The notes under the pieces were generated by a model, which was given only the letters and a program-made list of their open reading frames with translations, did no database searches and was not told the DNA's origin. 12,674 bases of DNA from Anaerolinea sp. GTDB taxonomy: Bacteria > Chloroflexota > Anaerolineae > Anaerolineales > Anaerolineaceae. This document shows, piece by piece, positions 1-12,674 of the stretch (within the stretch, counting starts at the first letter, position 1; every line of letters begins with the position of its first letter). The translations under genes and the position numbers were made by a program. The stretch is taken from contig PNNU01000048.1 of assembly GCA_013824385.1 (NCBI GenBank), positions 1 through 12,674 of the forward strand, written 5' to 3'.

Positions 1-1034
1 ACGACCTGCGGCATGCGGCTTGAGCCGCCCACCAACACCAGTTCATCAATATCGGAGGGTTTCAGGCTGGCATCTTTGAGCACGTTTTCAAATGGTTTGT
101 TGCAGCGATCCAGTAATTTTGCAGTCATCTGCTCGAATTTGGAGCGGCTGAGTTTGAGCATCAAGTGTTTGGGACCGTTGGCATCCGCGGTAACGTAAGG
201 CAGGTTGATCTCGGTTTCCATCACAGTGGAAAGCTCAATCTTGGCCTTTTCGGCGGCCTCACGCAGACGCTGCAGTGCCTGACGGTCTTTGCGCAGGTCT
301 ATGCCCTGGTCGCGCTGAAATTCATCCGCGGCCCAGTTGACGACCACTTCATCCCAGTCGTCGCCGCCCAGGTGGGTGTCGCCGCTGGTGGATTTAACTT
401 CGAAGACGCCCTCGCCTACTTCAAGCACGGAAACATCAAAGGTGCCGCCGCCCAGGTCAAAGACGAGGATCTTTTCGTTTTTCTTTTTATCCAGACCGTA
501 GGCTAGTGCGGATGCGGTTGGTTCGTTGATGATACGCAGCACTTCAAGACCGGCGATCTTGCCCGCGTCTTTGGTAGCCTGACGCTGGCTGTCGTTAAAG
601 TACGCCGGAACAGTGATAACAGCCTGGGTGACTTTTTCACCCAAAAAGGCTTCGGCATCCGCTTTCAACTTAGCCAGGATCATGGCGGAAATTTCTTGCG
701 GGGAATAATCTTTGCCGGTGGCAGGGATGCGTACCTGCGCATCTTTAGCGGGGCCAGAGATGACTTCATAAGGCACCATCTTGCGTTCGGTGGCTACTTC
801 ATCGAAGTGGCGCCCCATGAAGCGTTTGATGGACGAAACGGTGTTCTCAGGGTTAATCACAGCCTGTCGCTTGGCGGTTTGTCCCACCAGACGTTCGCCG
901 TTCTTGGTGAAGCCAACAACAGATGGGCATAGACGGCTGCCTTCCGCGGTGGTGATGACCACCGGGTCGCCGCCCTGCATAACTGACACGACTGAATTAG
1001 TAGTACCAAGGTCAATTCCAATAATTTTCGACAT
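1..1034 (-). CDS. dnaK: Chaperone DnaK (Hsp70), 5' part, runs off left edge
   Basis: Hsp70 chaperone that binds and releases unfolded peptides in an ATP cycle with DnaJ and GrpE in the cytoplasm. The minus strand reads 344 codons without interruption from ATG at 1034. Phosphate-1 motif GIDLGTTNS is near residues 6-14, followed by [15 protein letters not shown], the VPAYFND strand, [12 protein letters not shown], the phosphate-2 motif [13 protein letters not shown], and finally [14 protein letters not shown], the adenosine-binding segment, at the window edge. Only the nucleotide-binding domain is therefore present; the substrate-binding domain lies outside. A good Shine-Dalgarno (GGAGG, complement of 1043-1047) precedes the start by 8 bases. 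No CIRCE operator (TTAGCACTC with its inverted copy) is visible upstream. No dnaJ or grpE lies upstream on this strand; the gene just upstream carries DnaJ-like zinc motifs but no J domain. Identification is certain; the gene is partial only because the window ends. Confidence 0.98.
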
Positions 1035-1173
1035 AATTAAAACCTCCACGATTTCAAAGGGATTTGTTGCATTAGAGTAGTATTACTATATCCCCTGAGT
1101 ATTAAAAGAATGTAAACAAATCATTTGATTTTCATTGGAGGATAATTCTTTAACCACTAAAAACACAAAAAAA

Positions 1174-1366
1174 CGAGAATCGAGAACTGAGAACAGAGAA
1201 CCGTAAAAACAATAACTGGGAATTGAGAGTAGAGAATTGTAAAATCGAGAACAGAGAACAGAGAACCGTAAAACCAAGAATCGAAAACCGACCTTTCACC
1301 CTTCTCTCGGGGGAGCTAAATCCGTGGAACCGAGAATCGAGAGCTGAGAAACGTAAAAAGCAATAA
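1174..1366. repeat. Purine-rich GAGAAC-type interspersed repeats, left flank
   Basis: The 380-base gap between dnaK and the next gene contains no credible gene but is filled with variants of one unit. A unit of the form CGAGAATCGAGAACTGAGAA, then CAGAGAAC, then CGTAAAAACAATAA begins at 1174. A shorter version (CGAGAATCGAGAGCTGAGAA, then ACGTAAAAAGCAATAA) runs 1331-1366. Degenerate copies lie between them, with GAGAA followed by N, C/T and GTAAAA near 1225-1235 and 1255-1275. Runs of GAGAAC dominate. The stretch 1151-1176 (TAACCACTAAAAACACAAAA) looks like a second simple repeat type. Copies of the same GAGAAC word occur in the opposite orientation at 2376-2410, on the other side of the 1415-2287 gene. 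No spacers of constant length are present, so this is not a CRISPR. Confidence 0.75.
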
Positions 1367-1414
1367 TCAATAATGGAGGACCAATTTTCCTTATAATGTC
1401 TTTATACTAATATT

Positions 1415-2287
1415 CTATAAACGATTATCCAATGTGAACATTAATAAACTTGCAAGACTAAGCTGTTGCATGGCAATGTTATTAGTGATATTTTCATTAC
1501 CGTGAGCTTTTGGATTGCGAATTCCTGTCATAGATCCTGCAAATATTTGCAAATATCCTTGTTGAAGATTTTTGCCAGTTTCAGTTGAAACATCACCTAG
1601 TTTAATTATTGGTTGTGATAAAGAGAATGCTTTATTCATTAATGCTGCTCCATCTAGTTCTTCACCAATTTCATCTCGGACAATTATTTTAATTATGCTA
1701 TTTATTTCTTTAAAAGCTGCTTCAACTGAATCAGAATAATGTTTTGAAATAAATCGACTTTTTGATACTTTTAGAATTCTTGGATGAATGAGAGACCAAA
1801 AAGGGTCTTTTTCCGTTTCATCGGTATCATCCTCAAGGTTGACAAAACCAGTACCAAGACAAACTTCGCAAACTTCTCCGGTAGCTCTTCCATCACTGTC
1901 CCAAGCTCTTCCAATGCCGTCACAAAATCTGCACTTAATTATGTTTTTATTATTAAGGTTAATTTTATTTAAACCTTTTCCATGGCAAACAGGACATGGA
2001 AAATTTGGAAATTCATCTTCAATGTAAAGTTCTGATGGATAAACACCATCTCCTTCACAAAAAGCGCACTCAATGAAGGAACTATCCCTGTCGGTTAATG
2101 TCAAATACCCCTCTTTAATTTTTTGTAATAATTGGGAGATTTTTAATTCAAAGGTTTTTCTTTGATTCTCTTCATCAACGCCAAAGGGACCACCTTCAAT
2201 AAATCTCATGCACCAATTTAAAAAATCTAATTCCTTTTTTGTTAAGATTACAGAAATAAACTCTCCAATTTTCATTTCGCCATCCAT
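1415..2287 (-). CDS. DnaJ-type zinc-finger / Ymh (TIGR02391) HEPN-domain protein
   Basis: A 290-residue protein of two recognisable parts. Residues 74-147 carry four CxxCxGxG motifs: CAFCEGDG at 74, CPVCHGKG at 98, CRFCDGIG at 119 and CEVCLGTG at 140. This is the number and pattern of the DnaJ cysteine-rich domain, expected to bind two zinc ions. Residues about 168-290 match the Ymh/TIGR02391 pattern: HPRILKVSKSRFISKHYSDS, an AAFKEIN helix, LMNKAFS, GYLQIFAGSMTGIRNPKAHG and LSLASLLMFTLD. The RNPKAH sequence (R257, H262) is an R-x4-H motif typical of HEPN RNases and nucleic-acid-binding proteins. Residues 1-70 are helical and unrecognised; there is no J-domain HPD, so it is not a DnaJ. The start could be Met1 or Met5 (2275); neither has a clear ribosome site. 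The gene is AT-rich and lies between inverted purine repeats, suggesting transfer. A role in RNA-targeting defence is inference only. Confidence 0.85.
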   Translation of the reverse strand: MDGEMKIGEFISVILTKKELDFLNWCMRFIEGGPFGVDEENQRKTFELKISQLLQKIKEGYLTLTDRDSSFIECAFCEGDGVYPSELYIEDEFPNFPCPVCHGKGLNKINLNNKNIIKCRFCDGIGRAWDSDGRATGEVCEVCLGTGFVNLEDDTDETEKDPFWSLIHPRILKVSKSRFISKHYSDSVEAAFKEINSIIKIIVRDEIGEELDGAALMNKAFSLSQPIIKLGDVSTETGKNLQQGYLQIFAGSMTGIRNPKAHGNENITNNIAMQQLSLASLLMFTLDNRL

Positions 2288-2314
2288 TTATGTTTTGTTA
2301 TGAAAAATTGTCAA
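2287..2314 (-). promoter_or_regulatory. Candidate promoter of the zinc-finger/HEPN gene
   Basis: On the minus strand a perfect TTGACA (complement of 2309-2314) is followed after 16 bases by CATAAA (complement of 2287-2292). That -10 overlaps the first possible ATG. If it is used, transcription would begin about 5 bases before the second Met codon at 2275, giving a nearly leaderless message starting MKIGEF. The -10 match is only 4 of 6, so this is tentative. Confidence 0.35.
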
Positions 2315-2375
2315 ATTTCTATTTTGATGAAATCATATTTAATCCAAAGAATTCCTTGAAATAAATTGGTTTAAA

Positions 2376-2410
2376 CAGTTCTCTGCTCTCTACTCTCTGT
2401 TCTCTGAACT
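2376..2410. repeat. Purine-rich repeat, right flank, inverted to 1174-1366
   Basis: CAGTTCTCTGCTCTCTACTC continues with TCTGTTCTCTGAACT. Its complement is made of the same GAGAAC and AGAGAGTAGAGA words seen at 1174-1366, so the two blocks face each other across the AT-rich gene. The repeat touches the stop codon of the divergent PAP2 gene (TAA, complement of 2410-2412), leaving essentially no spacer. Confidence 0.65.
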
Positions 2411-2868
2411 TACTTAGGCCAGATGAGCCACATGATCAGGGCGGTGACGAGGCCGGTGAGTACGCCGCCCAGTACTTCTACGGGGGTGTGACCGAGCATT
2501 TCTTTGAGTTTCTTTTGTTCTTCGGTGGGGGTTTTGGTGATGACGAACCAGTCATCCAGCATTCTATTGAGGGCTTCGGCATGGTAGCCGGCTTCACGTC
2601 TTACGCCTGCGGCGTCGTAGACCACGATCATGGTGATGGCCACGGCAATGGCGAAAGCCGGGTTGTCAAATCCACTGAAGAGGCCGATGGCCAGTGTGGT
2701 GCCTGATAAAGTTGCGGAGTGTGAACTGGGCATGCCGCCGGTGCCGAAAGCCAGTTTGACATTGAACTTGCGGTGCATGATGAAAAACACCGGAATCTTT
2801 AAAATGGAAGAGATTATCCAGGCAGTGATACAGGTGATCAGTTCGGGGTATTGTGCAAGGCCAGTCAT
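2410..2868 (-). CDS. Divergent PAP2 family (DUF212/YuiD-like) membrane protein
   Basis: A 152-residue integral membrane protein of the divergent PAP2/DUF212 family. Its signature is GGMPSSHSA (residues 44-52), the equivalent of the PAP2 phosphatase SxxxH motif, followed by VYDAAGVRREAGYHAEALN (83-101) and GHTPVEVLGG (126-135). Hydrophobic segments lie near residues 10-30, 52-86 and 131-150. The length is normal for the family. Its biochemical activity and substrate are not established; a lipid-phosphate phosphatase role is only suggested by the motif. It begins 3 bases after the xseB stop with an AGAGG ribosome site that lies inside the end of xseB, so it is very likely the last gene of an xseA-xseB operon. 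Its 3' end abuts the inverted purine repeat. Confidence 0.93.
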   Translation of the reverse strand: MTGLAQYPELITCITAWIISSILKIPVFFIMHRKFNVKLAFGTGGMPSSHSATLSGTTLAIGLFSGFDNPAFAIAVAITMIVVYDAAGVRREAGYHAEALNRMLDDWFVITKTPTEEQKKLKEMLGHTPVEVLGGVLTGLVTALIMWLIWPK

Positions 2869-2871
2869 GGC

Positions 2872-3102
2872 TTAAACCTCTTTGTCTGTTGCAGATTTTG
2901 AGGTGTTAAGTTCCTTGATACGCAGTTCTGCGTTATCCAACAGAGAGGTGCAGTACTGCGACAAAATCTGGCCGCGCTCAAAAAGGACCATGGTTTCGTC
3001 GAGGGGCTGCTGTTGATTTTCCATCGCTTCAACTATGGATTCGAGTTCGCTGAACGCCTGTTCATAGGTTAACTCTACCGGGGTTTTATCCGTTTTAGCC
3101 AT
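2872..3102 (-). CDS. xseB: Exodeoxyribonuclease VII small subunit
   Basis: A 76-residue small subunit of exonuclease VII, which binds XseA to form the cytoplasmic single-strand DNA exonuclease. The family pattern is clear: LTYEQAFSELESIVEAMENQ, then PLDETMVLFERGQILSQYC, then LDNAELRIKEL, which forms two helices. The chosen start is the ATG at 3102 (MAKTDK). AGGAGG lies 8 bases upstream of it, inside the xseA 3' end. A GTG at 3111 would add three residues but would overlap that ribosome site. The gene overlaps the end of xseA by 8 bases, which indicates translational coupling. A slightly Ser/Thr/Lys-rich tail ends it three bases before the divergent PAP2 start. Confidence 0.95.
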   Translation of the reverse strand: MAKTDKTPVELTYEQAFSELESIVEAMENQQQPLDETMVLFERGQILSQYCTSLLDNAELRIKELNTSKSATDKEV

Positions 3103-4330
3103 CCTTACCACCTCCTGGAATTGATGTCACCTGGGATTGTATCGTGCCATCCGACACTTTAATTGAAACTTGATCTGAATACTTTACTTGTTTGACGCTG
3201 CTGACAACGCGGCCTGCGGAATCACTGACGATGGCGTAGCCGCGCTGTAGCACGGCAAACGGATTAAGCGAGGCGAGCCGGTTTTGGATGTTTTTCACCT
3301 GGCTGCGCTGCATGCGCAATTCATTATTAAACGCCAGTTCCGCGCGGCTGGCAAGTTCATCCAGACGCTGGCGGTCGTTACGCACCAGCCAAAGCGGAGA
3401 GAGAGTATCGAGCCGGTGTTTGAGATCCATAAGATCAACGGCTGCTTGAGTTGTAGCTGCCTGCAAAGCATAACCCAGGCGGGAAGACAAGGCTGACAGA
3501 CCTTCAAAAAGTTCTGCCCGATCGGGGGTGCACAGTTCCGCGGCGGCAGTGGGGGTGGGGGCGCGCAGGTCCGCGGCAAAATCGGAGAGGGTGAAATCCG
3601 TCTCATGGCCCACACCGGTGATCACGGGGGCAATCGAATTGACCACGGCGCGGACGACGCGTTCGTCGTTGAATGCCCACAGGTCCTCGAGAGAGCCTCC
3701 GCCACGGGCGAGGATGATCACATCCACGTTGCCGAGGTCGTTGAGTCGTTTGAGTGAATTAACCAGGGCGGGAGGCGCCTCATCCCCTTGTACGGGGGCG
3801 GCGGCCAGCACAACCTCGGCCAGCGGATAGCGCCGGCGCAGGGTGTTGAGCATATCCTGCAAGGCGGCACCGGTGGGGGAAGTGATAATGCCGATACGCT
3901 GAGGAATTTCAGGCAGCGCGCGTTTTCGTGAGACGTCGAACAAGCCTTCCGCTTCGAGGCGGGCTTTGAGACGCATGAATTCCTGGTATAGGGCGCCTTC
4001 GCCGGACATGCGTACCGCGTCGACATATAACTGGTACTGTCCGTCGCGTTCGTAGATGCTGATGGCGCCGTGGGCTTCAATGGCCATGCCGCTCTGCAGC
4101 ATCAGCGGCAGGCGGGCGGCGTTCATCTTCCAGATCACGCACTTGAGGGCGGAGCTAGGGTCTTTGAGGGTGAAGTAAATATGGCCGGAGGTTGGTCGCG
4201 ACAGGTTGGATATTTCGCCCCGAATCCACACATCGCGCAGGATCTCGTCGCTATCCATCAATTCACGCAGGTAGCGCGAAATGTCGCTAACCGTCAGGGA
4301 TGTGATTTGAAAAAGGGAGGGCTGCCGCAT
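3095..4330 (-). CDS. xseA: Exodeoxyribonuclease VII large subunit
   Basis: The 411-residue catalytic subunit of exonuclease VII, which degrades single-stranded DNA in both directions to short oligonucleotides and acts in repair and recombination. The N-terminal OB-fold spans about residues 10-105 (SLTVSDISRYLREL, VWIRGEISN, SGHIYFTLKD). The catalytic domain follows with QRIGIITSPTGAALQDML (144-161), VIILARGGGSLEDLWAFNDE (204-223) and VITGVGHETDFTLSDFAADL (236-255) followed by RAPTPTAAAE. The C-terminal half is helical and ends in the usual LQRGYAIV segment. It is a little shorter than the E. coli enzyme, mostly at the ends. The start at 4330 gives the family N terminus directly, yet no Shine-Dalgarno precedes it; with a -10 box 13 bases upstream the message may be leaderless. 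It is the first gene of the xseA-xseB-PAP2 unit. Confidence 0.97.
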   Translation of the reverse strand: MRQPSLFQITSLTVSDISRYLRELMDSDEILRDVWIRGEISNLSRPTSGHIYFTLKDPSSALKCVIWKMNAARLPLMLQSGMAIEAHGAISIYERDGQYQLYVDAVRMSGEGALYQEFMRLKARLEAEGLFDVSRKRALPEIPQRIGIITSPTGAALQDMLNTLRRRYPLAEVVLAAAPVQGDEAPPALVNSLKRLNDLGNVDVIILARGGGSLEDLWAFNDERVVRAVVNSIAPVITGVGHETDFTLSDFAADLRAPTPTAAAELCTPDRAELFEGLSALSSRLGYALQAATTQAAVDLMDLKHRLDTLSPLWLVRNDRQRLDELASRAELAFNNELRMQRSQVKNIQNRLASLNPFAVLQRGYAIVSDSAGRVVSSVKQVKYSDQVSIKVSDGTIQSQVTSIPGGGKDG

Positions 4331-4343
4331 ATTGATTTAATAT

Positions 4344-4371
4344 AACATACCCTCCCCTTTTTAGTTGTCAA
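4344..4371 (-). promoter_or_regulatory. Candidate xseA promoter
   Basis: Minus-strand TTGACA (complement of 4366-4371) lies 16 bases from TATGTT (complement of 4344-4349), with TATATT also present a few bases further on. Predicted transcription would begin within about 0-7 bases of the xseA ATG at 4330. The perfect -35 and the lack of a ribosome site support a leaderless operon transcript. Confidence 0.55.
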
Positions 4372-4372
4372 T

Positions 4373-4401
4373 CACACAAGTGTGTTTTTGTTTTCACACA
4401 C
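4373..4401. terminator. Weak hairpin cluster downstream of the lipoprotein gene
   Basis: Two overlapping hairpins can form: CACACAAGTGTG (4373-4384), followed on the plus strand by TTTTTGTTTT, and GTGTGT (4380-4385) pairing with ACACAC (4396-4401). The first would terminate plus-strand reading, where no gene needs it. The second lies right after the lipoprotein stop on the minus strand but lacks a U tract. It may be a weak terminator for that gene. Confidence 0.3.
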
Positions 4402-4402
4402 C

Positions 4403-5212
4403 TTAGAGACCAGGTGTACCAAGTGCAGTAGCGGTTCCTGTTTGTTCAGCAGAGGATATCGAAGTGGCGGTGGGTGGGACCGGTGTGGAAGTAGGCAAGG
4501 CCGCTGCAGTTTGTGCAACCGAGTAAGCGGTGGCAGCGGCATAGGCAGTATTGAGGGCATTGGCTGTGGCTGTCAGATTAGCAGTTGGAGTGATGGTGCC
4601 TGTGGTTGTGGCGGTCAGCGAAGTGGAGACCACTATAACCACTGTAAAGGAGGCGCCAAAGGATTTACCGGCGGCGTTTTGCAGGATCCAGGTGCCGGTG
4701 TAAGTACCCTTGGTGATGGGTGCCACCAGGTTCACTGAGATATTATCCGCGTGGCCCGAGGTGACGGCGGGGATGGCGGTGGCAACGCCGCTCATGGCGG
4801 TTCCGCTGAGGAAGGCGACCTTGTAAGAGGTTGACCAGTTGCAGGTGCCGGTGTTCTTGAGCGACCAGGTTTTAGTGAAGGTTTGCCCGGGGGTCACGAC
4901 CGTGTTATCGGGGATGGTGACATCGGAGACAAAAACTGAATTGTCACAGGTGGATACCATCGCAGTTCGGGTGGGGGTGGCGAGGATGGCTGCCGTGTTG
5001 GTCGCCAGCGGAGTCAGAGTAGCCGTGGGTGAGGGCGTCATGCTGGGTTGGGGGGTGACCGTTGGCATGGAAACTGCCAGGGTTTGCGCTACGGATGTGT
5101 AGAGCACATCCATGGTAGCCTGGGTGAGCGGCGCTTCAGTGGGTTTGGCGCAGGCGCTCAATACGAGCAGGCAACAGACAACAAGAATGAGTATTCTTTT
5201 TTTGTTAAACAT
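4403..5212 (-). CDS. Lipoprotein with NBR1-type Ig-like domain
   Basis: A 269-residue exported protein. Lys/Arg at residues 4-6, a hydrophobic core (7-18) and the lipobox LSAC with Cys21 mark it as a lipoprotein anchored outside the cytoplasmic membrane. A Thr/Pro/Ser/Ala-rich linker (about 45-85) leads to one Ig-like domain of the N_BRCA1_IG type at about 88-195. Its markers are CDNSVFVSDVTIPDNTVV, PGQTFTKTWSLKNTGTCNW (109-126, with the conserved GTCNW) and GTYTGTWILQNAAGKSFG (169-186). The tail (about 200-269) is again Thr/Ala/Pro-rich. Such proteins are frequent in Anaerolineae; their ligands are unknown and a cell-surface binding or scaffolding role is inferred. Ribosome site AAAGGA lies 7 bases before the ATG. 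The gene has its own candidate promoter and appears monocistronic. Confidence 0.88.
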   Translation of the reverse strand: MFNKKRILILVVCCLLVLSACAKPTEAPLTQATMDVLYTSVAQTLAVSMPTVTPQPSMTPSPTATLTPLATNTAAILATPTRTAMVSTCDNSVFVSDVTIPDNTVVTPGQTFTKTWSLKNTGTCNWSTSYKVAFLSGTAMSGVATAIPAVTSGHADNISVNLVAPITKGTYTGTWILQNAAGKSFGASFTVVIVVSTSLTATTTGTITPTANLTATANALNTAYAAATAYSVAQTAAALPTSTPVPPTATSISSAEQTGTATALGTPGL

Positions 5213-5291
5213 AAATAATCCTTTTAGTTCAAACTTGAAACTTTTGATTGTTAAATTTCGAATACTTTTACCATCCCCAATAATAACCCTG

Positions 5292-5322
5292 ATTATACAT
5301 ACTTAACCGTTGAACCAGTCAA
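5292..5322 (-). promoter_or_regulatory. Candidate promoter of the lipoprotein gene
   Basis: On the minus strand TTGACT (complement of 5317-5322) precedes a perfect TATAAT (complement of 5292-5297) with a rather long 19-base spacer. The predicted leader is about 75 bases. The spacing is not ideal, so the -10 is more trustworthy than the -35. Confidence 0.4.
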
Positions 5323-5427
5323 GAGTGGACAAAAAACTGAGTAAGTAAAAAACAAGCAGAAAAATCCGATTAAGCCGCTTAAATAATTTCATATAGAAAT
5401 AAATCATCAACCAGGAAGGTTTTTTTC

Positions 5428-5538
5428 AATGAAAAAACCGGCGAGTACATCTTTTGCTGCTACCCAAAGATGAAAGATGGAGTCGAAAACCTTATCTTTC
5501 ACCGCGGTGAAACCGGGTTTGTGATCCTCAATCGCTAA
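5428..5538 (+). pseudogene. Truncated HIT-family gene relic
   Basis: This ungapped 111-base stretch matches bases 8679-8789 of the intact HIT gene at 95 of 111 positions. In frame it reads NEKTGEYIFCCYPKMKDG, then VENLIFHRGETGFVILNR and a TAA stop, corresponding to residues 16-51 of the 160-residue protein. The N terminus and the catalytic HxHxH region are missing, and nothing similar continues on either side. Seven of the fourteen changed codons are synonymous, which suggests the copy diverged while still functional, or came from a related genome, before it was truncated. The first Cys of the C-x-x-C pair is Tyr here. It is not expected to encode an active protein. Confidence 0.85.
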
Positions 5539-5647
5539 CCTTCACAAACCAATGCCTCTTTGAGTTGTGGGTGAATAACTCAATTGGTGTTAGAAAATTT
5601 AATACTTTTTGCTTCGATTAAAACTCAAAAACCAAATAGAAACAAAA

Positions 5648-5673
5648 GCAACCAGGAGCATGCTCCTGGTTGC
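5648..5673 (-). terminator. Perfect 26-bp palindrome, terminator of the RCC1 gene
   Basis: GCAACCAGGAGC, AT, GCTCCTGGTTGC is an exact inverted repeat with no mismatch. On the minus strand it begins 29 bases after the RCC1 gene stop and is followed by TTTTGTTTCTATTT, which gives the stem plus U-rich tract of an intrinsic terminator. The plus-strand side is A-rich (AACAAAA), so termination is favoured only in the minus direction. Confidence 0.8.
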
Positions 5674-5702
5674 CAATTAAACATTATTGTATTAGAAAAG
5701 GA

Positions 5703-8345
5703 TCAGGGTTCAAGTACATAGACTGGCAAATTGCTGTCGATGGTGGAATCGTTGCCTAACTGTCCGTAGGTATTTTCTCCCCAGCACATGGCCGTATTGC
5801 CTTCACCAACCAACACACAACTATGATTTCTGCCAATGCCAATCTCTTTTGCTTCCGAAATTCCAGTTGTTAGCACTGCGCTGGTGGATTCTTGATTGGT
5901 GCCATTGCCAAGTTGACCATATTGATTGTCTCCCCAACAGGACGTAGTGCCATCCGCATTTAGAGAACAACCATGATTAATGCCGGTTTCGACCATATAG
6001 GCAGGTTTTGAACCTTCAATAAATTTGGATAAAGGATCGTTATTCCAGCATTTTACCTGACCATTGAAATTGATGGCACAGCCACCCATGTTCCAGCGAT
6101 CACCAAAGAGGAAGAGAGAGTTGCCCATTTCTTGAACCAGGGTAGCTTGTTCGGCACTCCATGCATCCACACTACCGGCTGCATCGCCTAAAAGGGCTTC
6201 CTGTCCGGCTGCGATTGCGTTTTGAAGCTTATTGAGAAGTGATTTTACAGGTTTGGTGCGGTTAATAGTAGAGCCGTCATTGAGTTGACCGAGGCCGTTC
6301 TCACCCCAGCACCAGACATCCATATTTTTCAACAGAGCACAGGTAAATTCTTCTCCGCCGGTGATGTCGATGGCTTTATCAGGAAGACCATCCACAAAAA
6401 CAGGTAAACTGGTATCTGTGGTCGCGCCATTGCCGACCTGTCCGGATTCATTTTCACCCCAGCACCACACCTCACCATTTGATTTTAAGGCACAGGTATG
6501 AAGGCTACCAGCAGTAAGATCAACAACTTCATTGAGGTCCTTGACAAACACGGGTTTTAATTGGTTATCGTTTGTTCCATCACCTACTTGCCCTGAGGCA
6601 TTCAAACCCCAGCATAACACTTCGCTATTTCCAGCGGTCATACAAGTATGACCCAGACCCGCGACGATGATTCGAGTGCCAGTTACAGGGATCTGTAACC
6701 CGCCTGTTACAGGAATCAAAAGATTGGAAGCTGCTTGAACCACCGGTTGTGAGGGATTTGCAACACAATCGTTGCCAATCAATTGTTCATCTGGTCCACA
6801 AACGATGGGTTCGCATTCATTACCCACTAACTTGGTGCCGATCTCACAAACGATGGGTTCGCATTCATTGCCCACTAACTTGGTGCCGATCTCACAAACG
6901 ATGGGTTCGCATTCATTGCCTACCAACTTGGTTCCGGTCTCACAAACGATGGGTTCGCAACCAACACCCTCTGTGAATTTTTGGCCTGTCGGGCAACTTT
7001 TGCATTTTGCTGGATCTGTACAGCCTGTGACAGTCGGCTGTGTATATTTCAAAAAGGTAAACTGTACGTTCTTCGGGCTTTGACCGGTTCCATTTGCCCA
7101 AAGGAACCATAATTCCTGATTGATTTGAATTTTCGAATCGTTTAAACCGCTTGTAATGTAATTTGCATAAGTTTGCTGTTTAGTGCTTAATGGAGTAACG
7201 CCACTAGCGTTTCCAAGCACATTTTTTACGTGACCAAGTAGATTCCAATAGACCATTCTTTCGTCTGAGTTGGACCATGGGGTAAAACCATCAACGGTTT
7301 GCTCTGACATGTTGGCAGCCAGAATTAGGTCATCAATTCTTTGTTCAGCGGTGAGACCTAAAGTACGTTCGTCAGGGTTATCTTGAAAATATTTAATGAC
7401 ATCTTTATCAGTGGGGTTTTTCAGGATCATGCGGTAATTTTTATTGATGTTGATGGGAATCTGAGGTTCACCGCAATCCCATTCGAAATTGGTAGAGCTA
7501 TTATTGGCGTCTTTAACTCTATAATAATCACCTGAACTGTAAACGATCAGATTGGCTTCAATCGTGGCTGCATCATTTGCAGGGTTTACCAAAGTTAAGG
7601 CATCATTTAGCTGCCCGCCTGCATTAACAATCACCTTGTCGGCATATACTCCGCTTGTGGTGCCAAAATCGGCGTTAAGGGTCAAGGATTTTAATGTCGC
7701 AAAACCAGGATTGGTAACCGTTGGAGGAGTGCTGTCCGCATTGACTGAAACAGAATTAAACCCGGTGAAGGATAATTTTTTTGTGCTATTAATTATGACA
7801 TCTTCATTGTAAGTGCCTGTTGCCACATAAATGTTGGTGTCAACCGTGAGTGCCGATGCGGCAGTGATGGCTGCCTGGAATGGAGTGTCTGATGAAAGGC
7901 AAGTCACGTTGGTCGGACATCCTGTTCCGCTTTTGGTATAACCCACCCATTTAGTCCCATCCCAGAAGAAGGGATCGCTATCGCTAAGGATTACGCTTGC
8001 CTCTTGGCTGGCCATTGCAATGGGTTCCCCGGTTTCGTCAGTCAGGGTCATACCTTCGTTATCCAGAATAGTAACAATATCTGAAAGGTCTTCAGTTAGC
8101 GGTAAAGATTCGATTTCGGGGGCTTGTGTGGCTTCGGCAGCAATAACATTTTCGACTTCTGTTGGCAATTGCTCGGCTTCTGGTGTTTCAGTGGGGATTG
8201 TATCTTCGGTAACCGTTTCTGTGGCTAAGGCATCTGTGCTGATTGGTTGTTCATCTTGTGCAAATACTAACGTTGGTGTAATCGAGCCAAAGAAGAGAAT
8301 AACAATGATACTTACATAAAATAATTGTTTACCGAACGTTTTCAT
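5703..8345 (-). CDS. Secreted RCC1-repeat (beta-propeller) protein with Cys-rich tandem repeats
   Basis: An 880-residue exported protein. Its signal peptide has a basic start, a hydrophobic core (9-28) and a likely cleavage after VFA29. An acidic Thr/Glu/Pro-rich linker spans about 30-90. Residues about 125-290 include FFWDGTKWVGYT and a region resembling the start of a right-handed beta-helix (NIYVATGTYNEDVIINSTKK). Residues about 320-440 are unassigned. A Cys-rich segment (about 460-525) repeats the 16-residue unit CEPIVCEIGTKLVGNE. RCC1-type repeats from about 560 to the end contain five clear blades with H/F-x-C and CWGxNxxGQ signatures plus one degenerate blade (CAINFNGQVKCWNND). The paired Cys in each blade suggest extracellular disulphides. 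A helical, non-RCC1 insertion (about 701-753) interrupts the propeller. AGGAG lies 7 bases before the ATG. The function is unknown; a surface binding or adhesion role is inferred. Confidence 0.88.
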   Translation of the reverse strand: MKTFGKQLFYVSIIVILFFGSITPTLVFAQDEQPISTDALATETVTEDTIPTETPEAEQLPTEVENVIAAEATQAPEIESLPLTEDLSDIVTILDNEGMTLTDETGEPIAMASQEASVILSDSDPFFWDGTKWVGYTKSGTGCPTNVTCLSSDTPFQAAITAASALTVDTNIYVATGTYNEDVIINSTKKLSFTGFNSVSVNADSTPPTVTNPGFATLKSLTLNADFGTTSGVYADKVIVNAGGQLNDALTLVNPANDAATIEANLIVYSSGDYYRVKDANNSSTNFEWDCGEPQIPININKNYRMILKNPTDKDVIKYFQDNPDERTLGLTAEQRIDDLILAANMSEQTVDGFTPWSNSDERMVYWNLLGHVKNVLGNASGVTPLSTKQQTYANYITSGLNDSKIQINQELWFLWANGTGQSPKNVQFTFLKYTQPTVTGCTDPAKCKSCPTGQKFTEGVGCEPIVCETGTKLVGNECEPIVCEIGTKLVGNECEPIVCEIGTKLVGNECEPIVCGPDEQLIGNDCVANPSQPVVQAASNLLIPVTGGLQIPVTGTRIIVAGLGHTCMTAGNSEVLCWGLNASGQVGDGTNDNQLKPVFVKDLNEVVDLTAGSLHTCALKSNGEVWCWGENESGQVGNGATTDTSLPVFVDGLPDKAIDITGGEEFTCALLKNMDVWCWGENGLGQLNDGSTINRTKPVKSLLNKLQNAIAAGQEALLGDAAGSVDAWSAEQATLVQEMGNSLFLFGDRWNMGGCAINFNGQVKCWNNDPLSKFIEGSKPAYMVETGINHGCSLNADGTTSCWGDNQYGQLGNGTNQESTSAVLTTGISEAKEIGIGRNHSCVLVGEGNTAMCWGENTYGQLGNDSTIDSNLPVYVLEP
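6797..6958. repeat. 48-bp in-frame tandem repeat inside the RCC1 gene
   Basis: The word CACAAACGATGGGTTCGC recurs at 6797, 6845, 6893 and 6941, exactly 48 bases apart. That gives three full units plus a partial fourth. The units differ at only a few positions (for example TTACCCAC, TTGCCCAC and TTGCCTAC). Being a multiple of three, the unit adds 16 residues per copy with two Cys each. The near identity points to recent expansion, and copy number could vary between strains. Confidence 0.95.
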
Positions 8346-8376
8346 GCAACACTCCTAAAGAATTTGATAACCCAAT

Positions 8377-8403
8377 AAAAAAACCGACCAAAAAGGCCGG
8401 TTT
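8377..8403 (-). terminator. Intrinsic terminator inside the RCC1 gene leader
   Basis: On the minus strand AAACCGGCC (8403-8395), a UUUUU loop (8394-8390) and GGUCGGUUU (8389-8381) form a 9-bp stem with one G-U pair, followed by four more U (8380-8377). This is a standard intrinsic terminator, but it lies about 30 bases before the RCC1 start codon and downstream of its promoter. It would stop the gene's own transcript unless it is prevented from folding. Confidence 0.75.
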
Positions 8404-8418
8404 CGCAATTGGCTCCCT

Positions 8419-8488
8419 TGACACCCGTTCACTTTTCAATGAACCTGCGACCAAACTAAGTGTCAAATTCTTCGCCGCCGAAAACTAC
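8419..8488 (-). promoter_or_regulatory. Structured 5' leader element (candidate riboswitch or attenuator sensor)
   Basis: Upstream of the leader terminator the minus-strand RNA can form a 7-bp closing stem, UUGACAC (8466-8460) with GUGUCAA (8425-8419). It encloses a hairpin, GUUCAU (8444-8439) with GUGAAC (8432-8427). A third hairpin, UUUUCG then GCGG then CGAAGA, lies just 5' of this. GGUCGC (8452-8447) could alternatively pair with GCGAAACC, which includes part of the terminator's 5' arm. I do not recognise a known riboswitch class; the element is defined only by its pairing potential and position. Confidence 0.45.
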
Positions 8489-8511
8489 TATAATATAAAA
8501 TAATTACATTT

Positions 8512-8539
8512 ATATTACCACACATTTACTTAATGTCAA
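8512..8539 (-). promoter_or_regulatory. Strong promoter of the RCC1 gene
   Basis: Minus strand: a perfect TTGACA (complement of 8534-8539), a 16-base spacer ending in TGTGG, then TAATAT (complement of 8512-8517). Predicted transcription starts near 8505, giving a leader of about 160 bases that contains the structured element and terminator. It is divergent from the HIT gene on the other strand. Confidence 0.7.
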
Positions 8540-8633
8540 GGCTTTTTTTTGAAATTAAGCATATTTTGATTAATTATACAGGCTTAGCCAAATTCATGTA
8601 AAATTAAACCAATATAGGAAAAGGATACGAGCG

Positions 8634-9116
8634 ATGGAAAACCTTTGGTCCCCCTGGCGCATGAAGTACGTCACTGACAATGAAAAACCTGGAGAGTGCA
8701 TCTTTTGCTGCTACCCAAAGATGAAAGATGGCGTCGAAAACCTGATCGTTCACCGCGGGGATAATGCGTTCGTGATTCTCAACCGCTACCCTTACACCAG
8801 CGGGCACGTCATGGTGGTGCCTTTTCAGCATGTAGCCTCCATTGAAGAGCTGACGGCGGATATCCGTGCAGAGATGATGGAGATGGTCAACGAGACACTT
8901 GGCGTGCTGCGCAAGGTCTATCAGCCGGAGGGGTTCAATGTGGGCATCAACCTGGGTGTGGCGGGCGGAGCGGGGATTGCAGAGCACGCGCACGTGCACA
9001 TCGTTCCGCGCTGGGGCGGCGACACCAATTTCATGTCCACCACGAGCGAGACGCGCGTCATCCCCGAGGACTTGCGGGTGACCTACGAGCGCATATCCGC
9101 GGCGTGGAAAAGTTAG
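8634..9116 (+). CDS. HIT-family protein, Ap4A phosphorylase-like
   Basis: A 160-residue nucleotide hydrolase or transferase of the histidine-triad superfamily. The start MENLWSPWRMKYV and the end HAHVHIVPRWGGDTNFMS match the branch containing mycobacterial diadenosine tetraphosphate phosphorylase. The triad is His118-Ala-His120-Val-His122, where the middle His is the expected nucleophile that becomes nucleotidylated. Cys22 and Cys25 (CIFC) are the likely zinc ligands. NRYPYTSGHVMVVPFQHV (50-67) is the usual substrate-loop strand. An AAGGA ribosome site lies 8 bases before the ATG. Upstream, TGTAAAAT (8597-8604) resembles an extended -10, but no good -35 is visible. A truncated relative lies at 5428-5538. 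The gene is alone on the plus strand and divergent from the RCC1 gene. The exact substrate (Ap4A or another dinucleotide) is inferred from family resemblance. Confidence 0.93.
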   Translation: MENLWSPWRMKYVTDNEKPGECIFCCYPKMKDGVENLIVHRGDNAFVILNRYPYTSGHVMVVPFQHVASIEELTADIRAEMMEMVNETLGVLRKVYQPEGFNVGINLGVAGGAGIAEHAHVHIVPRWGGDTNFMSTTSETRVIPEDLRVTYERISAAWKS

Positions 9117-9159
9117 CAAATTCAACCAAACAAGCCCGCTATTTCTTCGATTTGGTAGC

Positions 9160-9187
9160 TTCCATTAAAGAATAAATTCGCTATAAT
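9160..9187 (+). promoter_or_regulatory. Candidate promoter of the CPBP protease gene
   Basis: A perfect TATAAT at 9182-9187 is preceded after 16 bases by TTCCAT (9160-9165), a poor -35. The -10 and its position about 60 bases before the start codon make a promoter likely; activator help may be needed. Confidence 0.4.
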
Positions 9188-9210
9188 TAACTGATTCCCT
9201 GATTACAAAG

Positions 9211-9228
9211 CAAAACAAATTTGTTTTG
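9211..9228. promoter_or_regulatory. 18-bp perfect palindrome in the CPBP leader
   Basis: CAAAACAAATTTGTTTTG is an exact inverted repeat between the TATAAT box and the start codon at 9246. It ends where the purine-rich GGAG (9228-9231) begins. As DNA it could be a dimeric repressor site downstream of the promoter; as RNA its AT-rich stem would be weak. It has no T tract, so it is not a terminator. Confidence 0.4.
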
Positions 9229-9245
9229 GAGACCATAAAGCAAGC

Positions 9246-10037
9246 ATGCAATCTACTTTATCGCCCGCCAAAGAAAAATCCGTATTAATTACCATCATGG
9301 TTGCCGCCATCCTTTTACCGGTGCTGTTCTTTGGCGCAATAAAGCTTTTTAACCTCAGGGGTCTGCCCGTCTATTTTGCGCAGCTTGGGTTGTACGCTGT
9401 TTTCTATTTGCTGGCCTTCTGGGGGATGAAGCAGAGTCGAATTAAATTGCCTTTCAGCGGACGTAAAGTGCTTGAATCGCTCACGATTCTGCTGGCAAGC
9501 TGGTTAATCTACGTTATTTTCATTTCTGCGACTGGCATCGTCCGTCTGTCGGATGAACTTGCGGCGCTGCAGTCCGTTGACGCATGGAAGGTGTGGGCGC
9601 AGATCGTCAGCACCTGGTTCTTCGTGGGCATTGGCGAGGAAGTGCTTTTCAGGGGTTATTTCTTGAAAAAATTATTGGCGTATTACGAGAGTAAAAACCC
9701 CAAAAGCAAAACACTGCTGGCAGTGCTGGTTTCGAGTGCTTTCTTCTCGATTTGGCATCTGCCAGTGCGGCTCTTTTCGCTGATCAACGGCGAGATTTCT
9801 ATCGGGCTGATTCTGATCAGCCTGGTCATGCTCTTCTTATTGGGGGCCGGTTTTGCATGGCTGTTCCTCCGTAGCGGTAACATTCTGCTCGTGGGATTGG
9901 TCCACGGCGTGATGGACTATCCGCTGATCGGAAAAGACAGCCAGCTTTCTTTCATCATCCTGATCGCAGCGATCGGATTGGTGGAGTTTTTCCAGTTGGT
10001 AAAACGCAGATACAACGCAGACAACCATCGCAGCTAA
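9246..10037 (+). CDS. CPBP family intramembrane metalloprotease (CAAX/Abi type)
   Basis: A 263-residue multi-pass membrane protein with the three motifs of the CPBP (CAAX protease and bacteriocin-processing) family. These are GEEVLFRG (residues 130-137, Glu131, Glu132 and Arg136), FFSIWHLP (167-173, His171) and LVHGVMDY (218-225, His220 and Asp224). The two Glu and two His are the expected metal and catalytic residues. Hydrophobic segments lie at about 13-31, 43-60, 75-97, 117-129, 156-170, 186-209 and 234-250, enough for seven or eight helices. The length is typical. The biological substrate is unknown; members process prenylated or secreted peptides or provide bacteriocin immunity. No close Shine-Dalgarno precedes the first Met (GGAG lies 14 bases away), so the start is uncertain. 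An 18-bp palindrome in the leader may be an operator. Confidence 0.92.
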   Translation: MQSTLSPAKEKSVLITIMVAAILLPVLFFGAIKLFNLRGLPVYFAQLGLYAVFYLLAFWGMKQSRIKLPFSGRKVLESLTILLASWLIYVIFISATGIVRLSDELAALQSVDAWKVWAQIVSTWFFVGIGEEVLFRGYFLKKLLAYYESKNPKSKTLLAVLVSSAFFSIWHLPVRLFSLINGEISIGLILISLVMLFLLGAGFAWLFLRSGNILLVGLVHGVMDYPLIGKDSQLSFIILIAAIGLVEFFQLVKRRYNADNHRS

Positions 10038-10090
10038 TTTATCGTTAGTAATACCAAGTTGGAAAAATTTCTGCTTCTTCAAGGATGATG

Positions 10091-10621
10091 ATGAAAACCA
10101 AAAAACTTATTTTTTTGATTGCCATATCAATATGTATTTTGGTTACCACACCAATTCCAATTCTTAGATTTTTTCAAATTCTCAACAAACGCGGATCCCT
10201 GCCCCCAGATGATGCCATGAAATATTACCAGGCGTTTCCAACCCCCGGCAGCGACCTGAGGTTTATTGAAGCCAATGTTGAGATTCGTATTCCGCCGAGC
10301 GCCAGTGAGATCTATGCCTGTATAGGTGGTTTCAATGAAAAAGATTCGCGAGTGCGGTTTAACCTTCCGCCGCCTGATTTCCCCTTGTTTATCAGAACCA
10401 CTTTTTGTGAGAGTCCGTTTATCCCCATCGATCCGCGAGAATTGCACCACAGTGAATTTGATCCAGAGTGGTGGAATCCAGACATGGCAACTAACTTGAC
10501 GGAATGCGTCGGCGGCACCAGTTATACTGAGCAACAGATCATGGTGGATCGCACTGACAACAAAAGCATGGTTATTTACGTGTTAACATTAATGGAAGCG
10601 TTTGAAGGACCGACTGAATAA
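10091..10621 (+). CDS. Small exported or membrane-anchored protein of unknown function
   Basis: I do not recognise a family. From the ATG at 10091 it is 176 residues. Three ATG codons follow one another at 10085-10093; the third is preferred because AAGGA (10081-10085) overlaps the first and stands 5 bases from the third. An N-terminal Lys-rich start and hydrophobic stretch (KLIFLIAISICILV) make a signal anchor or uncleaved signal peptide. No signal-peptidase or lipobox site is obvious. The rest is a Pro-rich, mildly acidic domain with Cys79, Cys108 and Cys141 (counted from the first ATG), the motif GGFNEKDSRVRF and a Trp pair (DPEWWNPD). It begins 53 bases after the CPBP stop and ends 48 bases before the aminotransferase, so the three may be cotranscribed. 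The uninterrupted frame, ribosome site and topology support a real gene. Confidence 0.65.
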   Translation: MKTKKLIFLIAISICILVTTPIPILRFFQILNKRGSLPPDDAMKYYQAFPTPGSDLRFIEANVEIRIPPSASEIYACIGGFNEKDSRVRFNLPPPDFPLFIRTTFCESPFIPIDPRELHHSEFDPEWWNPDMATNLTECVGGTSYTEQQIMVDRTDNKSMVIYVLTLMEAFEGPTE

Positions 10622-10669
10622 AGCACTTACAGGCTGGTATAGTGTTCACTACCGATCAGGAATAATCTC

Positions 10670-11833
10670 ATGAAAATTGCTAAATTTGCCACGGAACATT
10701 TCTTTGCCAAATATGAATTCACCACCCCTTACCAACTGTGCAACTCTGATTGTGATACGCTTTCAGTGGATGAACTGCTTAAGATGGCGGGCGTGCCCCT
10801 CGCGGACTTCGGCAAACTTTCGCTGGGATACACTGAATCGCTGGGCAATCTGCCGTTGCGCGAGAGTATTGCGGCGGGGTACAAATACATTATGGCTGAG
10901 GATGTGATCTTTTTGGGTTCGCCGATTGAGGGTATTTACCTGGCGGCTCGGGCAATCCTTGAGGCGGGTGATGAAGTGATTGCGCTCAGCCCGGCTTATG
11001 ACGCGCTGGTGAATATGTTCGAGCACGTGGTTGGCTCAGAAAACGTACGCAAGTGGCGCTTCAAACCCACTTCCACCCAATGGGAACTGGATTTTGAAGA
11101 ATTGGAGTCGCTGATCAACGATAGAACAAAGTTGATTGTAGTGAATTTTCCGCATAACCCCACCGGGTTCGTGCCCACACAGGCGCAGTTGGATCAATTA
11201 GTAACCAGTGTATATTCACACAACCTGTTTCTTTTTTGCGATGAAATGTATTTTGGGTTGGCGCATCAGGGCACGCCGTCCATTCCCTCTGTTGCTGAGT
11301 TAAGTCCGCGGGCGGTGGTGCTCTCGGGGCTCTCCAAGACTTATGGGCTGCCGGGTCTGCGCAGCGGGTGGCTAATCGTGCAGGATAAGGCGCTGCGCGA
11401 CGAGATTATCAACTGGAAGTTCTACACCAGCATCTGCCCGCCTGCACCCACGGAGTTTCTAACTGTCGCGGCGCTCAAGGTTAAGGAAAAATTACGTGAC
11501 CGCAGCCTGGCACAGATCGAAGCCAACCTGAAGCTGGCGGATGACTTCTTCGCGCGTTGGCCGCAGCTTTTCACCTGGCGGCGCCCGCTGGCCGGGTCCA
11601 CTGCGCTGGTGGAGATGCATGTGCCCTCTGTGGAAGTGTTCGCCGAGAAGATGGCGCGTGAAGCGGGTGTGCTCATCCAACCCGCCACCACTCTGGGCTG
11701 GGATGATCAGCATTTTAGATTGGGGCTGGGAAGGTCCGCGTTTGGGGTGGCGCTGCAGAAGTTTGAAGAGTATATAACCTCACGCAGAGACGCAGAGGGC
11801 GCAGAGAAAAACTATATTATTAAAAAGTTTTAA
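10670..11833 (+). CDS. PLP-dependent aminotransferase, class I/II
   Basis: A 387-residue fold-type I aminotransferase. The features in order are LSLGYTESLGNLPLRESIAA (51-70) near the substrate arm, FLGSPIEGIYLAARAILEAG (81-100) in the cofactor phosphate region, NFPHNPTG (159-166, Asn of the PLP ring contact), CDEMYFGL (Asp and Tyr of the ring contacts), LSGLSKTYGLPGLRSGW with Lys223 as the Schiff-base lysine, and RLGLGR near the C terminus (carboxylate-binding Arg). It resembles the branch that includes capreomycidine-synthase-like enzymes, but the substrate cannot be read from sequence. AGGA lies 8 bases before the ATG. The natural end seems to be around FEEYI (365-369). The last 18 residues, beginning TSRRDAEGAEK, are translated from an inserted CGCAGAG repeat, so the original stop has probably been replaced. 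Confidence 0.93.
   Translation: MKIAKFATEHFFAKYEFTTPYQLCNSDCDTLSVDELLKMAGVPLADFGKLSLGYTESLGNLPLRESIAAGYKYIMAEDVIFLGSPIEGIYLAARAILEAGDEVIALSPAYDALVNMFEHVVGSENVRKWRFKPTSTQWELDFEELESLINDRTKLIVVNFPHNPTGFVPTQAQLDQLVTSVYSHNLFLFCDEMYFGLAHQGTPSIPSVAELSPRAVVLSGLSKTYGLPGLRSGWLIVQDKALRDEIINWKFYTSICPPAPTEFLTVAALKVKEKLRDRSLAQIEANLKLADDFFARWPQLFTWRRPLAGSTALVEMHVPSVEVFAEKMAREAGVLIQPATTLGWDDQHFRLGLGRSAFGVALQKFEEYITSRRDAEGAEKNYIIKKF
11780..11810 (+). repeat. Left 31-base CGCAGAG inverted repeat of the GxxExxY cassette
   Basis: TCACGCAGAGACGCAGAGGG followed by CGCAGAGAAAA. It is the inverted partner of 12289-12319 with 28 of 31 positions matching. Internally it is three spaced CGCAGAG words. It lies inside the aminotransferase reading frame and codes for SRRDAEGAEK, a peptide tail that this kind of repeat often creates at the ends of proteins. 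Confidence 0.9.
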
Positions 11834-11878
11834 AAACAAAAGAGGGAAAAAATAGGAGTGGAAGAAAAGAGAGGGAGA

Positions 11879-12262
11879 ATGATCGAAAATGAAATTACAA
11901 AAATTGTCATTGACTCGGCCTACAAAATCCATACAAGAATTGGACCAGGCCTTTTAGAATCTGCGTATCAAGCCATTATTGTTTATGAACTGAAAAATAG
12001 AGGGTTACATGTGGATTCTGAAATACCTATGCCGATCCATTACGAGGATGTCAATCTGGATGTTGGATTTCGCGCTGATTTGATAGTTGAAAACAAAGTA
12101 ATTGTTGAATTGAAGTCAATTGAAAAATTAGCTGAAGTTCATAAAAAGCAATTGTTGACTTACTTAAGAATTTCAGGGTTACAAGTTGGGTTGTTGATCA
12201 ATTTTGGTGCCCCATTAATTAAAGATGGGATTTTTAGGATTGTTAACGGGCTCAAGGAATAA
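11879..12262 (+). CDS. GxxExxY protein (PD-(D/E)XK nuclease-like)
   Basis: A 127-residue protein of the GxxExxY family (TIGR04256; PDDEXK_3). From the ATG at 11879 it reads MIENEITKIVIDSAYKIHTR, then the name-giving GLLESAY. Next come DVGFRADLIVENKVIVELKS, containing the D-x(n)-E-x-K pattern of PD-(D/E)XK nucleases, and HKKQLLTYLRISGLQVGLLI with the conserved Gln. The end INFGAPLIKDGIFRIVN is also typical. A GTG at 11858 would add seven residues; ATG is preferred because family members begin close to the ENEIT segment and AGAGAGG lies just upstream. Nuclease activity is predicted from the fold motifs and is not established for this protein. It is strongly AT-rich compared with both neighbours and sits between inverted CGCAGAG repeats, consistent with an acquired selfish cassette. 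Confidence 0.92.
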   Translation: MIENEITKIVIDSAYKIHTRIGPGLLESAYQAIIVYELKNRGLHVDSEIPMPIHYEDVNLDVGFRADLIVENKVIVELKSIEKLAEVHKKQLLTYLRISGLQVGLLINFGAPLIKDGIFRIVNGLKE

Positions 12263-12292
12263 AAAACCCGGTTTTTTCGAAAACCAGGTTTT
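12263..12292. terminator. Bidirectional hairpin terminator between GxxExxY and gatB
   Basis: AAAACC (12263-12268), C, GGTTTT (12270-12275), loop TTCG (12276-12279), AAAACC (12280-12285), A, GGTTTT (12287-12292). This is a 12-pair stem with one mismatch and a UUCG-type loop. It lies between convergent genes. The minus side ends in six T, which fits termination of gatB; the plus side ends in four T, which serves the GxxExxY gene less well. Confidence 0.75.
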
Positions 12293-12319
12293 CTCTGCGA
12301 TCTCTGCGGCTCTGCGTGA
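12289..12319 (-). repeat. Right 31-base CGCAGAG inverted repeat of the GxxExxY cassette
   Basis: On the minus strand this reads TCACGCAGAGCCGCAGAGAT followed by CGCAGAGAAAA. It differs from the left copy at three positions and defines a cassette of 540 bases (11780-12319). Its outer end is 9 bases from the gatB stop, so the repeats border the 3' ends of both host genes. Confidence 0.9.
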
Positions 12320-12328
12320 GAATAAGTT

Positions 12329-12674
12329 TTAACTTAATAACTCTTCCAGTACCTGTTTAGCCTTGGCGGCGTCGGCTTTGCCGCGACTCTTTTTCATCAC
12401 ACCGCCCACGAACCAGCCGATCAGGGTGACTTTGCCGCCCTTGTAAGCCGAAACTTCATTGGGGCTCTCGGCCAGCACTTCTTCGCACACGGCGCGGATG
12501 GCGGAATCGTCGCTCACCAATCCCAGGCTTTCTTCGGACACTATCGCTTCAGGAGATTTTCCGCTTTGCTGCACTTTTTGCAGCAGACTCTTGCCGGTGT
12601 TGATGTTGATGGTGCCTGCATCCACCAGTTTGAGGATGGAGGCCAGCGCAGCGGGGGTCAGCGCCATTTCGGCA
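12329..12674 (-). CDS. gatB: Asp-tRNA(Asn)/Glu-tRNA(Gln) amidotransferase subunit B, C-terminal part
   Basis: The C-terminal 114 residues of GatB, the subunit that binds misacylated tRNA and the amidation centre of GatCAB, which makes Gln-tRNA(Gln) and/or Asn-tRNA(Asn). The segment is the helical YqeY/tail domain, with LASILKLVDAGTININTGK, LLQKVQQSGKSPEAIV, GLVSDDSAIRAVCEEVLAES and the family end segment YKGGKVTLIGWFVGGVMKKS followed by RGKADAAKAKQVLEELL. The reading frame continues beyond the right window edge (AEMALTP), so the Met near 12667 is internal and not the start. It is convergent with the GxxExxY gene and shares the hairpin terminator at 12263-12292. Its presence implies indirect Gln/Asn tRNA charging, normal for most bacteria. 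Confidence 0.96.
   Translation of the reverse strand, partial: AEMALTPAALASILKLVDAGTININTGKSLLQKVQQSGKSPEAIVSEESLGLVSDDSAIRAVCEEVLAESPNEVSAYKGGKVTLIGWFVGGVMKKSRGKADAAKAKQVLEELLS

Follow-up and report, generated by a model that had tools for sequence, protein, structure and literature searches.

A CxxCxGxG Zinc Module Joined to a Ymh/HEPN Domain in Anaerolinea sp.: A Candidate One-Protein RNase Effector

Gene and Protein Layout

The window analyzed here is a stretch of 12,674 nucleotides (nt) from Anaerolinea sp. (assembly GCA_013824385.1, contig PNNU01000048.1, positions 1–12,674). Its list of open reading frames (ORFs) includes a gene with an ATG start (1415–2287, minus strand) encoding a protein of 290 amino acids (aa), in which a helical N-terminal part and a four-knuckle module of CxxCxGxG motifs precede a Ymh/HEPN domain. 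We refer to it as the Zn-Ymh gene. It lies between dnaK and DUF212–xseB–xseA, with dnaK immediately downstream in the same orientation. The features of the gene and its flanks are as follows:

1415–2287, minus strand: Zn-Ymh gene; helical N-terminal part, four-knuckle CxxCxGxG module and Ymh/HEPN domain (ORF, Pfam, NCBIfam, structure model)
2114–2239, minus strand: N-terminal helical part, residues 17–58 (predicted secondary structure, motif tally, alignments)
2045–2068, minus strand: zinc motif 1, CAFCEGDG, residues 74–81 (motif scan and alignment)
1973–1996, minus strand: zinc motif 2, CPVCHGKG, residues 98–105 (motif scan and alignment)
1910–1933, minus strand: zinc motif 3, CRFCDGIG, residues 119–126 (motif scan and alignment)
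1847–1870, minus strand: zinc motif 4, CEVCLGTG, residues 140–147 (motif scan and alignment)
1439–1789, minus strand: Ymh/HEPN domain, residues 167–283 (PF09509, E 3e-26; HEPN-like predicted fold)
1709–1723, minus strand: E189-x3-K193, fitting the second conserved HEPN motif Ex3[KR] (alignment)
1502–1519, minus strand: RNPKAH, R257–H262, predicted ribonuclease (RNase) active-site motif (alignment)
1175–1210, no strand: repeat arm 3′ of the gene; low-complexity repeat of GAGAAC type (inverted repeat I1)
2369–2404, no strand: inverted partner arm 5′ of the gene (inverted repeat I1)

A first-pass annotation, made from the letters alone, had read four CxxCxGxG motifs within residues 74–147 and noted that a J domain with its HPD tripeptide is missing. 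Both readings hold: the motifs begin at residues 74, 98, 119 and 140, the string HPD is absent, and no J-domain family appears in the Pfam list at E values up to 1. Scanning for promoters and terminators gave nothing above shuffled sequences.

Ymh/HEPN Domain

The C-terminus matches PF09509 far above its curated cut-off (92.1 bits against 25; residues 167–283) and also exceeds that of TIGR02391 (67.3 bits against 39.45), as expected from the Ymh domain with RNPKAH (R257-N-P-K-A-H262) proposed by the first-pass annotation. Searching with the protein alone produced 352 matches, and 41 of the best 120, which were listed and examined, carry at least three zinc motifs; a second search with the alignment of those 41 gave 1810 matches at E 1e-10, the best 120 of which were examined. 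Both searches together list 171 distinct proteins, query included. R257, N258 and H262 are invariant in all 41 aligned zinc-fused rows, as are E189 and K193; of the 171 fetched proteins, 170 have RNPxxH. The first three residues fit the pattern Rx4-6H with a polar residue after R, which in many HEPN families is accompanied by a second Ex3[KR] motif (PMC3710099; this and the other papers cited by PMC number are drawn on in excerpt). Other HEPN families are described there as cleaving RNA independently of metal, with R and H required, and HEPN RNases are usually dimers (PMC13092281).

The predicted structure bears out the HEPN-like C-terminal fold suggested earlier: it is helical, the motif lies at the end of helix 3, and the top solved matches are HEPN proteins, with 2hsb first and, among the nearest, 7ae9 and 7ae2, in which a HEPN toxin was solved alongside its MNT antitoxin. 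On its curated profile match, invariant residues and predicted fold, the C-terminal Ymh half is a HEPN domain, probably acting as a metal-independent and probably dimeric endoribonuclease through R257, N258 and H262.

The same C-terminal domain, with Rx4H and Ex3K, defines the Ymh family (PF09509/TIGR02391) of Anantharaman et al. 2013 (PMC3710099), where a table gives Ymh solos, fusions to pMORC, AbiJ-NTD1 and AbiTii, and operons with restriction–modification genes. Zinc ribbons are listed on other HEPN families in the excerpted text of that paper, which lists no CxxCxGxG module with Ymh. Among PADLOC models, which come without a curated cut-off, PD-lambda-3 protein B (PD-Lambda-3_B) matches at E 3e-13 over positions 142–261 of its 270; the best stretch is the Ymh part alone, and the zinc module falls outside. 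Weaker matches are Aga_HEPN (4.6e-9) and CARF_HEPN_mCpol (7.3e-4). The excerpts describe PD-lambda-3 as an abortive-infection control (PMC13190303) and class it under PD-(D/E)XK nucleases (PMC10952713), so HEPN may not be its sole effector. A working analogue is DS-11, a one-protein CBS-HEPN defense system that loses defense when the HEPN catalytic residues are mutated (PMC13092281). Like the Zn-Ymh protein, it joins a sensing domain to HEPN in one chain, with CBS in place of the zinc module; the likeness drawn here is one of architecture.

Zinc Module

Eight of the nine cysteines of the protein sit in CxxCxGxG motifs. Seven of these eight are invariant in all 41 aligned zinc-fused rows and C122 is kept in at least 90%; with motif cysteines so nearly invariant, the four motifs are not due to chance. 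The first-pass annotation had called the region a full DnaJ-type zinc finger, of which the four motifs stood and the type did not. The DnaJ cysteine-rich domain profile, PF00684, scores 25.5 bits, under its curated cut-off of 32.7; the motif spacing is 16/13/13 against 9/18/6 in all four DnaJs compared; and in the two alignments seen the module pairs with DnaJ one motif out of register. Spacing in DnaJ itself varies, since the first two gaps of E. coli DnaJ (1exk) are 9 and 14 in the structure-database alignment. The ten structure rows listed for the module include the DnaJ domains 7zhs, 1exk and 2ctt, and the profile score, the spacing and the missing J domain separate the protein from DnaJ (type I Hsp40). 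Judged by its sequence, the zinc part stands as a CxxCxGxG module in its own right, a relative of the DnaJ one yet distinct from it, and possibly a doubled unit.

Other CxxCxGxG proteins resemble parts of it. Anti-TRAP/RtpA (PF15777), which carries two motifs (PMC2896485), has one CxxCxGxG pair like motifs 1 and 2 and scores 25.4 bits, under its cut-off of 32. The best single-sequence match among solved structures is the zinc segment of UvrA, with a whole-chain E value of 0.0022 and no individual stretch passing; both matches leave the HEPN part uncovered. The zinc region also matches the PHROG antiterminator Q-like family phrog_127 at E 4.2e-7, and Q structures match it insignificantly (E 0.3). 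From these likenesses one could read the protein as a regulator devoid of RNase activity, its HEPN part an RNA- or protein-binding fold and its zinc module working in the manner of anti-TRAP or antitermination protein Q. Invariant predicted catalytic residues are hard to square with a dead enzyme, and we consider such a regulator unlikely.

In six loci (L090, L091, L094, L097, L098 and L099), whose genomes were drawn from the phylum of the L001 genome discussed below, we also observed small proteins consisting mostly of CxxCxGxG motifs, four to six in each and some of them consecutive; these may be relatives of the Zn-Ymh zinc module.

Recurrence and Distribution of the Fusion

The fusion is a real and recurring architecture: among the matches listed, at least three motifs are held by 82 of the 171 proteins, query included (60 with four, 22 with three, 3 with two, 2 with one and 84 with none), a tally that covers the matches listed and therefore does not give frequencies in nature. 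Eighty of the 82 zinc-fused proteins fall within 216–320 aa, and the length tally puts 80 between 216 and 300 aa; the median is 241.

Trees of the Ymh domain, labeled by the presence of two or more motifs, require 16 changes over 219 rows and 14 over 110 rows; well-supported branches force 4 and 1 of them, and shuffled labels give about 67 and 34. A single origin of the fusion may be compatible with these trees. What disturbs so simple a view is the Ymh domain of the window itself, which is placed on a long branch and is nearest by path to zinc-free rows, without support. A simple motif of the N-terminal part (residues 17–58) occurs in 21 of the 171 proteins, three of which (P0041, P0043 and P0044) have no zinc motifs. 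P0041 and P0043 are nearest to zinc-bearing rows, suggesting loss of the zinc module; P0044 is nearest by path to zinc-free rows on an unsupported branch. Another type of zinc front end has also been joined to Ymh, since four loci (L013, L032, L041 and L042) carry a DUF2321 ribbon above the DUF2321 cut-off.

An alignment scan of species genomes gave at least 68 loci, in 64 of which the Ymh frame was found by pattern; two of them, L001 and L002, contain the zinc fusion. The full fusion was found only in the seed genome among 400 Chloroflexota sampled, among 395 Bacteroidota sampled (E 1e-20), and among 251 and 198 genomes of the two orders (E 1e-40). Searches of open-licence literature returned no description of the Zn-Ymh architecture. 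We are thus dealing with a known HEPN family bearing a front end undescribed in the literature searched, and with zinc-fused proteins that form a scattered family.

Composition and Surroundings of the Zn-Ymh Gene

The guanine–cytosine (GC) content of the Zn-Ymh gene is 33.3% (21.6% at third codon positions), compared with 46.7–58.0% in the four genes that follow on one side (DUF212/PAP2, xseB, xseA and a lipoprotein gene), in line with the AT-rich, foreign composition pointed out by the first-pass annotation. The L001 homolog has 32.6% GC in a 48.1% locus, so that in two of three loci the gene is richer in AT than its surroundings. The gene was probably acquired from elsewhere.

The repeat flanks reported from the letters are likewise present: the arms of I1 are 36 nt long, 75% complementary and 1158 nt apart, and enclose the gene. 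Their GAGAAC pattern occurs in none of 147 other loci, and they have no counterpart among the five longest repeat pairs of L002 and of L001, whose contig ends 17 nt past the gene; as ends of a mobile element these repeats are a hint only. No empty insertion site could be named among the Chloroflexota loci either. The order of xseA, xseB and PAP2 is kept in 15 of 20 such loci, and the window's DnaK has no match beside PAP2–xseB–xseA in 13 longer Chloroflexota stretches (two of which end at a contig end), so the dnaK neighborhood looks particular to this genome.

This last result bears on a protein-quality RNase, in which the zinc module would bind unfolded protein as DnaJ does, work with the adjoining dnaK product and cut RNA upon misfolding. 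The DnaJ-like motifs and the position directly upstream of dnaK speak for it. Apart from the isolated dnaK neighborhood, the window's DnaK is unmatched in L001 and L002, and the module is not that of DnaJ by cut-off or spacing and comes with no HPD. We regard a DnaK-linked stress RNase as very improbable and the weakest of the rivals.

Elsewhere in the window, a PDDEXK_3 gene (11858–12262; PF13366, E 3.5e-40; GC 35.3%) lies between inverted CGCAGAG-type arms (11779–11826 and 12273–12320; 48 nt, 79% complementary), a pattern found in none of the 147 loci. Both it and the Zn-Ymh gene are AT-rich between low-complexity inverted arms, and they may be cassettes of one kind. The intergenic stretch 5427–5542 is 86% identical over 116 nt to 8678–8793, part of the HIT gene 8634–9116, and is perhaps a decayed second copy of it. 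An RCC1-repeat gene of 880 aa (5703–8345) contains four 48-nt repeats at 6749–6972, giving 16-residue repeats with two cysteines.

Neighbors in Other Loci

Directly upstream of the L001 homolog lie an HTH_3 gene (43.2 bits against a cut-off of 23) and a RelE-like gene (26.5 bits, just under the cut-off of 27). In L002, the next ORF is listed as AbiU-like (PADLOC E 3.1e-107; AIPR PF10592 E 7.5e-43).

The pair in L001, together with the toxin–antitoxin complexes 7ae9 and 7ae2 among the nearest folds, would suit a stress-type toxin of a toxin–antitoxin arrangement, that is, a HEPN RNase held by a partner such as the L001 helix-turn-helix (HTH) protein and freed when the partner is degraded. In the window, however, DUF212 lies 122 nt upstream of the Zn-Ymh gene with no ORF of at least 60 aa between them on that strand, the neighbor in L002 is the AbiU-like ORF, and no partner appears in more than one of the three contexts seen. 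We therefore find this arrangement improbable.

A wider survey covered 119 proteins, encoded by the ORFs closest to the Ymh gene in 68 Ymh loci; sides that were truncated, ORFs shorter than 100 aa and proteins above 900 aa were excluded. ORF calling was naive; in L001 a wrong-strand ORF was chosen over the HTH gene. PADLOC matches at E 1e-15 include PDC-S14 in nine, type III methyltransferase in four and GajB in two, with 236 families matched in all, families that overlap, so that their totals are not protein counts. In several Bacteroidales loci (L004, L006, L007, L009, L016, L023 and L025), the zinc-free Ymh gene is closely preceded, on its own strand, by a 276-aa ORF that may be its operon partner.

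Proposed Function

Based on the domains, the conserved residues, the predicted fold and the scattered spread, we lean slightly toward the Zn-Ymh protein being a one-protein RNase effector, acquired horizontally and of the defense or toxin kind. The zinc module, which would hold two zinc ions, and the short helical N-terminal part probably bind a trigger or target (nucleic acid or protein) or set the oligomer. They would keep the RNase inactive until infection, and an anti-phage effect would follow from its release. The PD-Lambda-3_B match, the AbiU-like neighbor in L002 and the RelE-like/HTH pair in L001 are consistent with an effector or defense role.

Several observations weigh against such an effector. 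Readable context is available for only two further zinc-fused loci, L001 and L002, and the L002 homolog, at 39.6% GC, is richer than its 33.7% locus. In the window, a Pfam scan, the one method applied to its other genes, identifies the neighbors dnaK and DUF212–xseB–xseA as other than defense genes. By sequence, neither of the two family profiles retrieves a HEPN chain from the solved structures, and the group of the best fold match, 2hsb, is described in PMC3710099 as usually lacking the motif H. No match was found in 50,697 phage records or in a scan of viral contigs; among plasmids there are 56 matching records, none of them matching over 80% of the query, and in the 20 that were listed the match starts no earlier than residue 129. 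Finally, 81 control genes at least 7 kb from Ymh genes match 71 PADLOC families, BrxL and type I methyltransferases included. Because such distant genes also match PADLOC models, we claim no defense enrichment.

We further speculate, more tentatively than for the one-protein effector itself and with some doubt, that Ymh/HEPN is a plug-in class of one-protein RNase defense effectors with exchangeable zinc heads for trigger recognition, either four-knuckle or of the DUF2321 type, and that the four-knuckle head recognizes a phage product.

HEPN effectors are common in phage defense. A compact family such as Zn-Ymh, with both parts in a single protein, is a simple setting in which to ask whether infection is sensed by a zinc head. 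The family also illustrates that CxxCxGxG modules are not confined to chaperones and can form the front ends of predicted effectors.
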